This document shows positions 1,267-11,544 of a DNA stretch of 25,331 nt, piece after piece (the stretch's first letter is position 1; the number at the start of each line of letters is the position of its first letter). Position numbers and translations under genes: made by a program. The notes below the pieces were generated by a model. That model was not told the DNA's origin and did not search any database. It was given only the letters and a program-made list of their open reading frames with translations. Origin of the DNA: a virus. The stretch covers positions 1 to 25,331 of IMG/VR virus record IMGVR_UViG_3300025141_000674; one strand, written 5' to 3'.

Positions 1267-1381
1267 TATTGTCCTCCCTTATGTATGGATCGTAGTCACC
1301 AGGGCATGAACAAAAAAAGCAGCCTTTGTCGTTGCACTCATCGCACTCAGGCTCATCCTTCATGTGGTCTTCAATTTCCAC
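1250..1381 (-). CDS. Cysteine-rich microprotein, candidate zinc binder
   Basis: GTG at 1379-1381 shares its G with the TAG stop of the upstream microprotein gene. The frame runs 43 residues and overlaps the RusA start by 17 bases. The middle holds C13xxC16 and then C21xxC24xC26, a spacing that could hold one zinc ion. The rest is acidic (DEPECDE, REDNNEDGR). The stop/start overlap, the cysteine pattern and the lack of any other frame on this stretch support it. The function is unknown; small phage zinc ribbons often bind host proteins. Confidence 0.55.
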   Translation of the reverse strand: MEIEDHMKDEPECDECNDKGCFFCSCPGDYDPYIREDNNEDGR

Positions 1382-1530
1382 TATTGCTCCCCCTCCTCTT
1401 CCTCTTCCTCTTCTTCCTCTTCTTTATTCTCACCAAATAAATCAGCGAGGTTCTCTTTCCAGGTGCCAGGATAGCAGTAACGACAATCCAAAGCTCCGCA
1501 CAAACAAGGCTCTCGGTATCTCCCCGCCAT
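1381..1530 (-). CDS. Small PCLCG-motif cysteine protein with poly-acidic tail
   Basis: ATG at 1528-1530 is preceded by AAGGAG and lies two bases from the stop of the upstream gene. The 49-residue product starts MAGRYREPCLCGALDCRYCYPG, with C9, C11, C16 and C19 as a likely metal site. Residues 36-46 are almost all glutamate. I recall similar PCxCGxxxC small proteins from other phages, without known function. The acidic tail is coded by a GAG/GAA tract visible on the plus strand as CCTCTTCCT repeats, so its length may vary between relatives. Confidence 0.65.
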   Translation of the reverse strand: MAGRYREPCLCGALDCRYCYPGTWKENLADLFGENKEEEEEEEEEEGEQ

Positions 1531-4327: not shown

Positions 4328-5425
4328 TTACTTTCTCTTTTCTAGTTGAAGTGTTGTTTCCTGATTGCTTGACAGTTCAGGATGTGAATTTTCAATTTGA
4401 ATTAATTTCTCAGAACTCTCCAGGCTCTCTCTTCCTATGCAAACATTTAAGTAGTCGCATCCTCCGAAATTAAAACAAGCAGAGCTATTTCTAATATTGA
4501 GCAAAGAACTTGAATCTGGGCTGTGTTTCTTTTTGCCCTCCTCAAGAAGCTCGACAAAGGATGTAAGCTCATTGAACCTTTGATTGTGCTGATCTTCAGT
4601 ACACATGACTTCATAACGAACATACTTCTCAGGGTGCTCCAGATAGTATTCCATTATTCGTTTATCAAATTCCTCGAGAGATTCCTGATTCTCAGCTTTT
4701 CTCTCTGCATACTCCTCATCAGTCTCAGATTTTCGTTTAGCAATCTTCTTCTTCTGTTTTGGCGAAGCCTTAGAAGTACCAACAACATCATAAACCAAGT
4801 TAGGGAACCCACTTCCTAGCCTCCATCCTGCTTCTCTATAGATAGTGCATTGAATATCCATTGGTAGTCTTGCGAAGTAAGTGCCAGTCACAGACTCTAA
4901 AGATACTGAGGTTGTCTTGTGCTCTAAGATTACAGGTAGTTCTGAGCCAAGTGTAATTGCATCAAGCTTTCCTCTGATGGTTATTTCCCCGTGTGCTGTA
5001 TCGAGCTTAAAGCTGAACTCTTGCTCTACTAGCCATTGGGTCTTAGCATCTTGAATATCCTTTAGTTCTGACTGGTATCTCTTGTAGTACCCTGCGACAT
5101 ACGCCTTGCACCTGGAGAAGTTTATTCTCCCTTCTTCCGATTCCCAGTACGAGACATCACCAATGTAATCAAAGACATCTCCAGGAATTATGGTCCCATG
5201 CTTCTGCACGTCGAACTCATGCCATCCGACTGTGCTTTCATACATCATGATGAGGGCGTTTTTGTAGCTTAATCCCTGATGGAACGCCTCAAGGCCTCGA
5301 TGAACTAAGGAGCCCGCCATCATTGCTGGTGATCCTCCTGCTGGCCTGTACATATCCATGTAGCGGTATCGGTATTTCCTTAGGCATCCTTGTGCTGTAC
5401 TTAGACTGCTTGACGTATAAGCCAT
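4328..5425 (-). CDS. Cas4/RecB-like PD-(D/E)XK nuclease with iron-sulfur cysteines
   Basis: The 365-residue product has C14 in QGCLRKY near the N-terminus. H42 in GSLVHRGLE follows, then D155 in RGKLDAI, and E168 and K170 in ILEHKTT as the PD-(D/E)XK centre. Three further cysteines, C317, C323 and C329, lie in ACFNFGGCDYLNVC. One N-terminal plus three C-terminal cysteines is the 4Fe-4S pattern of Cas4/AddB-type nucleases. A charged insert at about 220-260 (KQKKKIAKRK...) is probably a coil. It likely resects DNA ends for the ATPase coded downstream. AAAGGAG precedes the start. Confidence 0.85.
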   Translation of the reverse strand: MAYTSSSLSTAQGCLRKYRYRYMDMYRPAGGSPAMMAGSLVHRGLEAFHQGLSYKNALIMMYESTVGWHEFDVQKHGTIIPGDVFDYIGDVSYWESEEGRINFSRCKAYVAGYYKRYQSELKDIQDAKTQWLVEQEFSFKLDTAHGEITIRGKLDAITLGSELPVILEHKTTSVSLESVTGTYFARLPMDIQCTIYREAGWRLGSGFPNLVYDVVGTSKASPKQKKKIAKRKSETDEEYAERKAENQESLEEFDKRIMEYYLEHPEKYVRYEVMCTEDQHNQRFNELTSFVELLEEGKKKHSPDSSSLLNIRNSSACFNFGGCDYLNVCIGRESLESSEKLIQIENSHPELSSNQETTLQLEKRK

Positions 5426-5698: not shown

Positions 5699-5998
5699 CT
5701 AACCTTTAGTTAAATTTGAATCTTCCTTCGCTGCCGTGATGCTACGCTCTGTCTCTTCCAGTAGTTTCTCAAATCTATCCAGACTCTCCCTAAACGATAT
5801 CAGCAACGACCCAACCTCTTCACTTACCTCTGCTGCATCGACCCACTCTTTGGTCCCGATTAAGCTTCTTTCAAATTCCTCTGCCTCTTCAAGCTCCTCA
5901 GTTTCTTGAGCAGTGAAGATATATTCCATTCTTCTTTTTTCTCTTGGGGTAGGTTCTAATTCCTTTAACCCGTCGAATCCATCATGCTTGTTTTTCAT
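5699..5998 (-). CDS. Acidic coiled-coil protein of unknown function
   Basis: The 99-residue product is strongly acidic in the middle (QETEELEEAEEFERS) and has a likely coiled coil at about residues 60-92 (VGSLLISFRESLDRFEKLLEETERSI). The start overlaps the last 17 bases of the ArdC-like gene, with AGAGGG as a ribosome site. It may be a partner of the anti-restriction protein or a general early host-interaction factor; the sequence does not decide. Confidence 0.6.
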   Translation of the reverse strand: MKNKHDGFDGLKELEPTPREKRRMEYIFTAQETEELEEAEEFERSLIGTKEWVDAAEVSEEVGSLLISFRESLDRFEKLLEETERSITAAKEDSNLTKG

Positions 5999-6863
5999 AG
6001 GTTGTCCCTCTTATGCAGTCACAGGCTTTCTCTGCGCGTTGTGCTGCTTGCATTAAAAACTTTCTGTCGCTCTTTAGCTTTCCTAACCAATGCTCAATAT
6101 ATCCTGCTGAATTATTAAAACATTTATCTAAAGTTTCTTCAGGCACCCCTATGTCTGCAAGAAGGAAGCAATTTCCCATTTCAGCAACCAGCTCCTCTTC
6201 CGAGTAAGCATGATCACCGAAGAGACTTTTCATCCCTTCTTTTCTATTTAGTCTTGTCGTGTGTCCTGTGCTGTGAACAGCTTCGTGAAATCTTGTTGAC
6301 CAATATTCTCCCCGTAAGGAAAACCTTTCAGGTGATGGCATCTTGATAATGTCTAGGGTTGGAGAGTAGGATGCGCCGTTGTAGCCGTGCTTGGTTACAG
6401 GCCCTCCGTCCTCTTCATATCTTGCAACGATGTCCATTGCATTTTTATCCCAATCTTCAGGAGGGACTGACTCTTCTTTTTCTTTTGGCCAGATGGTTTC
6501 ATGATTCTCAATTTGGTTTCGATTAAAGATTTTATAGAATCGAGTAAATCCAAACCTTTTCTTTTCTCCGCCCTCAACCTTTTCGCCATGACCCCAGAAG
6601 ACAATAGGGGTATATCTCTCACCCTCGCTGAGCTTAAAGCCCATCTTGTTAAGCTGCTTGGCTGTTAGCCAGTAGGAACAGTCAAAGCCGGAAACTAAGG
6701 GGCTTGTTATGAGTGCGTTGATTCCTCTGTAAGGACGCTTGGTTATAAAGTTCTGAGGTCTTCCTCCCCTCGAGGTGGACCAAGGCTTTTGCCAAGGCAC
6801 CGTTCCGCTCTCAAGTAGTTCTACTATTTTCTCTGTAACAATCTTATTGACCTTCTCGCTCAT
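5982..6863 (-). CDS. ardC: ArdC-like anti-restriction protein (ssDNA-binding plus zincin domain)
   Basis: The 293-residue product has the two-part ArdC layout. Residues 1-125 resemble the ArdC N-terminal ssDNA-binding domain (VPWQKPW, RPYRGINALI, SYWLTAKQ, PIVFW, FYKIFNRNQI). The C-terminal domain has the metallopeptidase motif HEAVH (193-197), followed by TGH, and E228 in SEEELVAEMG as probable third ligand. ArdC proteins coat incoming single-stranded DNA and shield it from host restriction enzymes. The length and motifs are complete. AAGGAGGCAGACA precedes ATG. Early expression fits protection on entry or during replication. Confidence 0.88.
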   Translation of the reverse strand: MSEKVNKIVTEKIVELLESGTVPWQKPWSTSRGGRPQNFITKRPYRGINALITSPLVSGFDCSYWLTAKQLNKMGFKLSEGERYTPIVFWGHGEKVEGGEKKRFGFTRFYKIFNRNQIENHETIWPKEKEESVPPEDWDKNAMDIVARYEEDGGPVTKHGYNGASYSPTLDIIKMPSPERFSLRGEYWSTRFHEAVHSTGHTTRLNRKEGMKSLFGDHAYSEEELVAEMGNCFLLADIGVPEETLDKCFNNSAGYIEHWLGKLKSDRKFLMQAAQRAEKACDCIRGTTYEKQA

Positions 6864-8721: not shown

Positions 8722-9036
8722 TTATATCCTTGAAGACTTTTTATAGAAGTTTGCCATATTGGTTAGTTGTTCTTCCTCTTCTTTCTCCCTCGCGGCTATT
8801 TCTGTGAGGCAGGATTGAAGATCTTGTTCGAGCAGCGCCAAGTTCTGGGTTAGCTCGTCGCATTTTGCTTTGTAGTAATGGGACTTTGCCTGTTCCAGCT
8901 TTAGAAGTTTGAAGAATTTTTCAGCGTTGTCCCATTCTAGCTTGGCCATCTCGACGAGCCTCTCCTTTGAGGTGTTCTTAAACTCCTCGCTGCTTGGCTC
9001 ACCGACGACTCTGGTTAATGGAATTCGTAAATGCAT
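8722..9036 (-). CDS. Coiled-coil protein of unknown function
   Basis: The 104-residue product begins MHLRIPLTRVVGEPSSEEF. From about residue 25 to 95 it is one long heptad-like helix (LEWDNAEKFFKLLKLEQAK, LTQNLALLEQDLQSC, EIAAREKEEEEQL). GGAGGTCAC before ATG is the closest to a consensus ribosome site in the block. One copy of the 18-base repeat (9059-9076) lies 23 bases before the start. No catalytic motif is seen. Confidence 0.65.
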   Translation of the reverse strand: MHLRIPLTRVVGEPSSEEFKNTSKERLVEMAKLEWDNAEKFFKLLKLEQAKSHYYKAKCDELTQNLALLEQDLQSCLTEIAAREKEEEEQLTNMANFYKKSSRI

Positions 9037-9058: not shown

Positions 9059-9076
9059 TTAATAGAATTTCGCTAG
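9059..9076 (-). promoter_or_regulatory. 18-base early element, copy 1
   Basis: Plus-strand TTAATAGAATTTCGCTAG is 17 of 18 identical to 9301-9318. It overlaps the stop codon of the tryptophan-rich gene and lies 23 bases before the coiled-coil gene. The same orientation and the same place relative to a start codon suggest a promoter or regulator site for leftward genes. Confidence 0.45.
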
Positions 9077-9288
9077 AGTGCGGTTAGAAAAGATGCGATG
9101 CCGCGGTGGGCTGAGACAAAGAGTTCCCATTGAAGCCAAGCAGAGTGTTCTTTGGCCGGTGATAGCTTCCAGGCTCCCCACGGCCAAGCCTGGCAACATT
9201 CCCATGGCATTCCTTCCCAAGCTTGATCAATTTCCCACGGTTTGCGCTGTTCAATGTATGTTGAAATCATGTATTCTTCGTAGCTCAT
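9073..9288 (-). CDS. Tryptophan-rich microprotein with an eleven-residue tandem repeat
   Basis: AAAGGAGATAAGGC precedes the ATG. Eight of the 71 residues are tryptophan (W18, W24, W29, W35, W37, W40, W51, W54). Two tandem units, PWEIDQAWEGM and PWECCQAWPWG, share the pattern PWExxQAW. There are two adjacent cysteines (C31, C32). There is no signal peptide. The C-terminal part is mildly hydrophobic (ELFVSAHRGIASFLTAL) and could contact a membrane. No family is recognised. A terminator and an 18-base element stand just upstream, so the gene may be controlled on its own. Confidence 0.55.
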   Translation of the reverse strand: MSYEEYMISTYIEQRKPWEIDQAWEGMPWECCQAWPWGAWKLSPAKEHSAWLQWELFVSAHRGIASFLTAL

Positions 9289-9300
9289 GCCTTATCTCCT

Positions 9301-9318
9301 TTAATAGAATTTCGATAG
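9301..9318 (-). promoter_or_regulatory. 18-base early element, copy 2
   Basis: Plus-strand TTAATAGAATTTCGATAG lies between a rho-independent terminator (9324-9347) and the ribosome site of the tryptophan-rich gene, the place where a restart promoter is expected. It is 17 of 18 identical to copy 1. The AT-rich part next to the gene could act as a -10 box, but then the leader would be almost absent. Confidence 0.45.
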
Positions 9319-9323
9319 AAAGA

Positions 9324-9347
9324 AGAAAGGGGGCTTTCGCCCCCCTT
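9324..9347 (-). terminator. Rho-independent terminator, leftward
   Basis: On the minus strand GGGGGC, a GAAA tetraloop and GCCCCC form a G/C-only stem extended by A-T pairs, followed by TTTCTTCTTTCT. It begins just after the stop codon of the gene at 9351-9863. It should end or reduce transcription coming from the right, before the downstream microprotein genes. Confidence 0.8.
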
Positions 9348-9350
9348 GGG

Positions 9351-9863
9351 TTATTCACCCAGAGTCAGGTTCCGGATGCTCCGGGCTATTTGACCGAATG
9401 TCATGTATTCCGTGTTGCCTCCGTGTTGGTCTAACTCGCGTTGTCCGTAGAGTGCGGCCCACACGAACTTGACTTGCTTATTCTCAAAGCAACCTAGCTG
9501 CTCCTTCTGGTCCATCTTGACTTGATCAAGCTGCTCTCTCAGAGGACAGTAGAGGTCGTTATCGGTATCCTGGTTGGTTCGCCAGGCTGTCATGACCATC
9601 TTAAGGGTTTGACCGTCAAGCGGTCCCCCGTTGAGGGTGATGAACTCGGCTACCTTCTCGTTCCCGATAATCTCCATCGCGTCGTCGCTCTGGATGATGA
9701 TATCGAGGATTTCTTGAAGGTCCTCGCTGGCGACGAACTCTTTGTAGAATCTCGTCACAGTCTGTGCTCGTCCTACTAACTTCTTGGCTTGAAGCCAGTC
9801 TCTTGTTCCCACTTGGTGGTCGTCTACTTCACGTTCTAGACTTTGGATTAGTTGGTTGTACAT
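9351..9863 (-). CDS. 170-residue protein of unknown function
   Basis: The product begins MYNQLIQSLEREVDDHQVGTRDW. It is mainly helical in the first 90 residues and acidic overall. Two cysteines (LYCPLREQL, LGCFENKQ) lie in the second half, without a metal-site pattern. AGGAGATAAGCAAAC precedes ATG, and a UUCG hairpin (9880-9898) stands just upstream of that site. A strong terminator follows the gene, so it seems to be expressed as a separate unit from the downstream block. The family is not recognised. Confidence 0.7.
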   Translation of the reverse strand: MYNQLIQSLEREVDDHQVGTRDWLQAKKLVGRAQTVTRFYKEFVASEDLQEILDIIIQSDDAMEIIGNEKVAEFITLNGGPLDGQTLKMVMTAWRTNQDTDNDLYCPLREQLDQVKMDQKEQLGCFENKQVKFVWAALYGQRELDQHGGNTEYMTFGQIARSIRNLTLGE

Positions 9864-10269: not shown

Positions 10270-10351
10270 GACGGTTATCTCCTTTTCTTTCGGGTCGAGA
10301 ATGTCGACGATGAGCCGTACGGCCCGTTTGGTTGTTGGCAAGTGTGGTGAC

Positions 10352-10395
10352 GGAGCCCCGAGGAGCCCCGACGAAGCCCCGAGGAGGAGCCCCGA
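10352..10395. repeat. Four GRAGCCCCGA direct repeats, GC-rich
   Basis: GGAGCCCCGA occurs at 10352-10361, 10362-10371 and 10386-10395, with a variant CGAAGCCCCGA at 10372-10382. This is far richer in G+C than its surroundings and lies between two minus-strand genes. A six-pair AGGGCC/GGCCCT hairpin (10400-10414) is next to it at a stop codon. It may be an iteron-like binding array or an expression punctuation mark. Confidence 0.55.
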
Positions 10396-11029: not shown

Positions 11030-11136
11030 ATTTGGAAGGTCCGACAGTTATATATGGGACTGGAGCAAGTCTAGAATCATAGTAATACTAGTGCGCCTGA
11101 TAGTAGTAAGAGGGGATAAAAGAAGTATGTACTTAT

Positions 11137-11166
11137 TTGTGACCCTATGTCAAATAATTTTATAAG
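11137..11166 (+). promoter_or_regulatory. Candidate sigma70-like promoter for the late block with internal dyad
   Basis: TTGTGA (11137-11142) and TATAAG (11161-11166) are spaced by 18 bases; they match the -35 and -10 consensus at four and five of six positions. A dyad (TTATTTGTGAC at 11133-11143, GTCAAATAA at 11149-11157) covers the space between the boxes, so a bound regulator would block polymerase. Transcription would start about 70 bases before the first late gene. Confidence 0.35.
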
Positions 11167-11220
11167 TGCCGGATATTGCTAGGGTGCTCTACCGAGATAA
11201 TGCTTGACAAGTATCTCATA

Positions 11221-11241
11221 ATTGACAAAATCTAGGTCAAT
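11221..11241 (+). promoter_or_regulatory. Inverted repeat at the start of the first late gene
   Basis: ATTGAC and GTCAAT frame the only AGG-like ribosome site (in TCTAGG) and end directly before ATG. In RNA the six-pair stem would hold the ribosome site in its loop; in DNA it could be an operator. A second TTGAC lies at 11203. Confidence 0.4.
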
Positions 11242-11544
11242 ATGGCGAAAGATCACACAGTAACGGTCTATCAAAATGCGGATAATCACAAGTTGCTGCA
11301 TGACTTGTATATGATTACTCGGAAGCAGATTGAGGGACTTCGCCGCAAAGTTGAGGACGATGAGGATCTTACAGCAAAAGATTTAAAAACTCTCGACCTA
11401 TGTTATGATGGACTCAAGAAACTAATTGGTGTCGAGAAGGAGCTGAAGACTGACGCTCTTGCCTCGATGACCGACGATGAACTTCGGGCTCTCGCTAGAA
11501 AAACCATTAGAGAGGGACTAGCATCCAGTAAAAAGGGTAAGTAA
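11242..11544 (+). CDS. Terminase small-subunit candidate
   Basis: The 100-residue product (MAKDHTVTVYQNADNHKLLHDLYMITRKQIEGLRRKVEDDE...) is helical and highly charged, with a coiled-coil-like middle and a C-terminal tail SSKKGK. It is the first gene of the late block and comes before the large terminase, the usual place for the small subunit, which recognises the pac or cos site and forms a ring. Its length is a little short for the family and no clear helix-turn-helix is visible, so the call rests on position. It overlaps the next start by one base (TAATG). Confidence 0.45.
   Translation: MAKDHTVTVYQNADNHKLLHDLYMITRKQIEGLRRKVEDDEDLTAKDLKTLDLCYDGLKKLIGVEKELKTDALASMTDDELRALARKTIREGLASSKKGK

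Follow-up and report, generated by a model that had tools for sequence, protein, structure and literature searches.

A tryptophan-rich 71-residue gene in the leftward unit of a tailed phage is kept in one distinct relative and bears the marks of purifying selection

The window (the whole stretch of DNA analysed, 25,331 bases) is a record of a tailed phage in which the terminase, P22/SU10-like portal and SU10-like capsid genes are read rightward, and Sak4-like, PDDEXK, ArdC-like and DnaC-like genes are read leftward. The gene under study, W71, occupies positions 9073–9288 on the minus strand, and its assignment is supported by an open reading frame call with an ATG start, by a homologue in a second phage and by the ratio of nonsynonymous to synonymous change. 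The initial annotation had placed an open reading frame at exactly this interval and left its strand unstated; the plus-strand frame over the same positions is interrupted by stops. The product has 71 residues, eight of which are tryptophan (11.3%), and this composition proved as rare as had been claimed. Among 358 open reading frames of at least 50 residues preceded by a ribosome-binding site, listed mechanically from the window together with 11 related loci, 12 sources in all, only W71 and its homologue exceed 5.2% tryptophan, and the median content is 1.3%. A Shine-Dalgarno-like AAAGGAG (9296–9302, minus strand) lies 7 nt before the ATG, in agreement with the strong ribosome site reported earlier. 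The GC content of W71 is 50.5%, that of the window 45.1% and that of the upstream neighbour, g170, 50.7%.

Both flanking genes are also read from the minus strand. The upstream gene g170 (9351–9863) encodes a 170-residue protein related to a 198-residue protein in another phage locus, L017, while the downstream gene (8722–9036) encodes a predicted protein of 104 residues with no relative in 55 loci found by a terminase search. Elsewhere among the leftward genes, an ArdC-like anti-restriction protein with a zincin-like domain (5982–6863, minus strand) is conserved in the leftward block of the relatives at about 45–58% in full-length matches, and a small predicted protein (1381–1530, minus strand) ends in a C-terminal run of about ten glutamates.

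The 55 loci were obtained by searching viral contigs with the terminase; the close relatives are uncultured viral contigs, and the listed isolate phages reach about 26% terminase identity at best. A tblastn search with W71 over 58 loci gave four matches, three of which belong to the same virus. L001 is the window itself, and L002 and L003, which come from one other contig (3300025131_006858), were rejected as independent homologues because they are 100% identical to the window over the 6051 nt compared. The fourth match, in the distinct phage L016 (IMGVR_UViG_3300038314_000531), is a homologue at 1550–1756 on the minus strand, with 66% identity over 68 residues; the terminase of this phage is 84% identical to that of the window, and the gene has the same place in both genomes. 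A profile search found W71 in one of 49 related records, which do not include the window. When the sources were restricted to those with at least 2.5 kb of leftward DNA, the window included, 2 of 14 carried it, and the carriers are two distinct viruses only.

Besides its position and sequence, the L016 copy shares with W71 a terminator in front and seven of the eight tryptophans. It differs in its GTG start, which is preceded by AAAAGGAG, in the change of the second PWE to PRE and in an extra tryptophan near the N terminus; its locus differs in having a second terminator behind the gene and in being without the 17-nt repeats that flank W71 in the window. The neighbours differ as well, as the upstream genes of the two phages show no detectable relation (E 0.52), the downstream gene of the window has no relative in L016, and a search with the L016 upstream neighbour matched its own contig only. 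The lack of relation between the upstream genes led us to reject the idea that W71 travels with its upstream gene; the relative of g170 lies in L017, a locus without W71. Since the neighbours differ between the two phages, W71 and its terminator are what is shared, as a moron-like unit.

That a second, distinct phage keeps the gene at the same place indicates that W71 is real and selected, and the codon comparison of the two copies points the same way (dN 0.24, dS 1.21, NG86; dN/dS about 0.2), with mismatches at codon positions 1, 2 and 3 numbering 18, 10 and 30. When the same 58 substitutions were randomly placed, a mean of 31.5 identical residues remained (maximum 41) versus the 45 of 68 observed; none of 5000 simulations matched the observed identity and 96% contained a stop, which the observed pair does not. 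The tryptophans were kept in seven of eight cases versus 3.8 in the simulation (P 0.014), and the other residues in 38 of 60. DNA identity is 72% in the gene, versus 51% and 47% in the 150-nt flanks under forced alignment. The initial annotation had proposed looking for conserved tryptophan positions and comparing synonymous with nonsynonymous change; neither loss of the frame nor free variation of the tryptophans was seen. By one pairwise comparison, the number that two known distinct members allow, W71 is a protein-coding gene under purifying selection. The absence of any library match for W71 would suit a chance open frame that is no gene. However, the antisense frame, open in the window, is broken by two stops in L016, where the W71 frame is kept, and the codon comparison together with the substitution simulations refutes the chance reading, to which we assign next to no probability.

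The leftward genes, W71 among them, lie downstream of a sigma-70-like promoter (TTGACA-18-CATACT, 11124–11153, minus strand) that is conserved upstream of g100, the first rightward gene (11242), in the relatives. A leftward promoter-like site at this place, defined as a near-TTGACA, a spacer of 17 or 18 and a near-CATAGT, was present in 20 of 22 sources (18 distinct sequences), with L027 and L028 failing these criteria, versus a mean of 3.2 and a maximum of 7 in 200 base shuffles. In the window and in L016 alike, the distance from this site down to W71 is about 1.8 kb. This conserved promoter, together with the absence of W71 from most relatives, supports an early, accessory position; an early role had been suggested before. 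The same region (window 11060–11245) appears as a divergent promoter-like region at the same place in L005, L006, L008, L010–L019 and L021–L025. The g100 message probably has no leader, or almost none, since the rightward TTGACA of this region is so near the start codon and a clear Shine-Dalgarno sequence is missing. GC-rich short tandem-like repeats (GACGAAGCCCCGAGGAG) occur at 10349–10390, close to where the leftward unit begins.

An intrinsic terminator (9326–9347, minus strand; core hairpin 9329–9344, dG −13.3) is located between g170 and W71, as the initial annotation had observed, and is the sole strong leftward terminator detected in 11.2 kb. In L016 a terminator at 1802–1785 stands directly before the W71 copy, and the two terminators lie 1838 nt (window) and 1835 nt (L016) from the same reference point. 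Under strict criteria a strong leftward terminator was found in 4 of 13 sources, namely the window, L016, L017 and L030, of which L017 and L030 are without W71. L016 has its second terminator (1540–1525) right behind the gene; no strong leftward terminator was found behind W71 in the window. That the early unit ends here is clear for L016 alone, because the window has replication genes downstream of the same terminator.

Several other elements were observed around the L016 copy. Two perfect DnaA-box sites (TTATCCACA) occur at 1499–1507 and 4887–4895, one of them beside the W71 terminator, and a looser DnaA-box pattern gave three matches versus 1.0 expected in L016 and none in the window. Behind the gene, a 600-nt stretch without a clear gene contains three 35-nt direct repeats (1116–1294), each with a near-palindrome, AAAACTTT(N)GAAAAGTTTT; these are possible operators or a possible origin.

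Two 17-nt direct repeats bracket W71 in the window. The upstream copy (TATCGAAATTCTATTAA, 9301–9317, minus strand) overlaps the ribosome site with its last two bases and is the repeated element that had been reported upstream of the gene, while the downstream copy (TAGCGAAATTCTATTAA, 9059–9075, minus strand) starts with the W71 stop codon and lies upstream of the next gene. The copies differ by one mismatch, and a third match, a weak one, occurs elsewhere (mean expected by chance 0.09). The exact 14-nt core was found in no locus examined except copies of the same virus, and since L016 lacks it, the repeat does not count as a conserved element in the control of W71. Lying on either side of the gene, the copies may be the trace of a recombination seam.

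From the terminator and the upstream repeat, separate control of W71 had been proposed. The gap between terminator stem and start codon is 40 nt in the window and 28 nt in L016, and a scan of this gap for sigma-70-like sites, the one promoter type covered, found none in either phage; with this and the absence of the repeat from L016, an own promoter is not supported. Attenuated read-through is preferred, since 28–40 nt can hardly hold a promoter in addition to a ribosome site, above all in L016. From this lack of room we infer that transcription of W71 begins at the distant leftward promoter and is attenuated at the terminator.

The protein itself had been described as carrying a tandem repeat of a PWExxQAW unit. 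In W71, a pair of neighbouring 11-residue units agrees at 6 of 11 positions, a score reached by 0.03% of residue shuffles for 11-mers and by 0.3% if unit lengths of 6–15 are allowed. This part of the description stood, but the repeat is not conserved: in L016, where PRE replaces the second PWE, the best adjacent pair agrees at 4 of 11 positions, which 30% of shuffles attain (unit lengths 6–15). Since it is not above chance in L016, the repeat is no defining feature of the protein, and it resembles a remnant or local helix motif, not a conserved tandem array.

Searches for further relatives were performed in protein family, structure and contig collections. W71 matched no family in Pfam (E up to 1 and 10), in PHROGs (up to 1) or in NCBIfam and PADLOC (each up to 10), these four collections giving no known defence or anti-defence match either, and the sole sub-threshold Pfam match of the L016 copy was DUF3237 (E 0.23). 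Five weak matches in a sequence search of the PDB, the best to envelope glycoprotein gp160 (E 0.067), were read as tryptophan composition and set aside. Neither copy gave a tblastn match in isolate phages, and W71 against plasmids gave only E values of 5 and 7. Among exact patterns, AWLxWELF occurred in eight stretches of the viral contigs, two of them the known copies; another, in L062, had a profile E value of 0.0027 and was taken as a chance match because it lies out of frame inside a 100-residue gene. The pattern PWExxxAW(E/D)G gave six stretches, comprising the two known copies and four unrelated ones, and AWPWxAW at least 120, with profile E values above 0.05 only, beyond the known copies, among the matches listed. 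Across 2.9 million viral contigs, no further homologue was thus found within reach of the exact patterns among the matches listed. The genome contigs contained 151 pattern stretches and no relative of W71; one match in an Acidobacteriaceae MAG was rejected as a 35-residue open frame unlike W71 beyond the pattern. Rfam and tRNA scans found nothing, and the parts of the literature available to us held nothing on W71 under tryptophan-rich phage proteins, early-gene terminator read-through or W71 peptide strings. By sequence comparison, W71 and the L016 copy are a new orphan family of two.

AlphaFold was run twice, with each copy as query and a two-row alignment, and gave the same order of helices at low confidence (mean pLDDT 64 and 69, pTM 0.46 and 0.56). 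These low-confidence models place helices near the N terminus, over PWEIDQAW and over ECC, followed by a long C-terminal helix. Foldseek gave best E values of 3.6 and 6.9 in BFVD and no match in the PDB, and VIA, which aligned only two chains, gave 3t4r alone (Z 3.1, rmsd 3.6, 66 aligned); because the model is helical and of low confidence, these fold matches are within noise. The net charge is −4 in both copies, which disfavours a cationic lytic or tryptophan-rich antimicrobial peptide. No transmembrane-like segment was found in either copy (best Kyte-Doolittle 19-mer 0.67 and 0.89), and the C-terminal helix is amphipathic in both (moment 0.50 and 0.51).

Our leading explanation, held tentatively, is that W71 is an accessory early gene encoding a small, acidic, helical protein whose tryptophan face binds one partner, most likely from the host. 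Host RNA polymerase would start at the leftward promoter and transcribe W71 early, reaching it by read-through or antitermination past the terminator, and the level of the product would thereby be damped or delayed. Each PWExxxAW unit may fold as a short helix, capped by Pro-Trp-Glu and packed against the long amphipathic C-terminal helix, and the tryptophans could form a hydrophobic face for the partner. Position and accessory status suggest a host protein, bound in host takeover or counter-defence. A bolder form of this explanation, which we regard as unlikely, would make W71 the founder of a new family with a new small fold (Pro-Trp-Glu-capped short helices, interleaved tryptophans and one long helix), acting early on the host in a dose that the preceding terminator controls; a Cys-Cys pair and two histidines, conserved between the two copies, would perhaps bind metal.

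The position behind a terminator, in a leftward unit leading to replication genes, could also be that of a small regulator of phage transcription or replication acting on a phage partner or nucleic acid. This is an unlikely explanation, as most relatives have the same promoter and replication genes without W71, and the protein is acidic and matched no DNA-binding family. Next in our ranking, and unlikely too, is a peripheral membrane protein with its tryptophans and C-terminal helix at the inner-membrane interface, serving for example superinfection exclusion or lysis timing. The best 20-residue Wimley-White interfacial sums (−3.9 and −3.8) and the helix moments favour it, but transmembrane-like segments are absent and the negative charge disfavours anionic lipid surfaces. 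Below the bolder form given above we place a selfish or moron-like cassette in which W71 would serve as a small toxin or as the antitoxin member of a pair. A single terminator-bounded gene with non-conserved neighbours, flanked in the window by direct repeats, would fit such a cassette; however, no second small gene is conserved alongside W71 in both genomes, PADLOC gave no match up to the same E of 10, and we consider this origin improbable. Finally, a short tryptophan-rich frame that a terminator follows at once in L016 recalls a tryptophan-sensing leader peptide that controls the following terminator by attenuation, as in trpL. This is highly improbable: the window has no terminator after W71, the tryptophan codons are dispersed over 71 codons, purifying selection acts on all residues and not on the tryptophans alone, and no biosynthesis gene is among the leftward genes put through family searches.

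The preferred reading, an early protein with a host partner, can be set beside two known kinds of phage gene. Early host-takeover and counter-defence proteins are a general kind of phage protein, and W71 resembles them in that it is small and acidic, is an accessory gene, follows an early-type host promoter and has no wide family; it differs in resembling no named member and in a tryptophan content far above that of the other open reading frames of these phages. Phage morons are described, in the part of the source consulted, as accessory genes between phage genes, usually with their own promoter, operator and/or terminator and a GC shift (PMC2920897). W71 is similarly inserted among phage genes and absent from close relatives, and has a terminator before it in both genomes and one behind it in L016 only. 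Its GC content of 50% against 45% for the window would fit as well, but g170 has a like value. No promoter of its own is visible, and it occurs in one kind of phage only, for which reason we do not claim membership, and the window is not known to be a prophage.

Taken from raw sequence, a tiny orphan open reading frame is here a selected gene and not noise, and one that is short, expressible and dense in tryptophan. Accessory early phage proteins are common, and W71 is one of very many unexplained ones, its oddity being the tryptophan density. Should it act as a host inhibitor, the target would mark a weak point that a phage has picked out in a bacterium.
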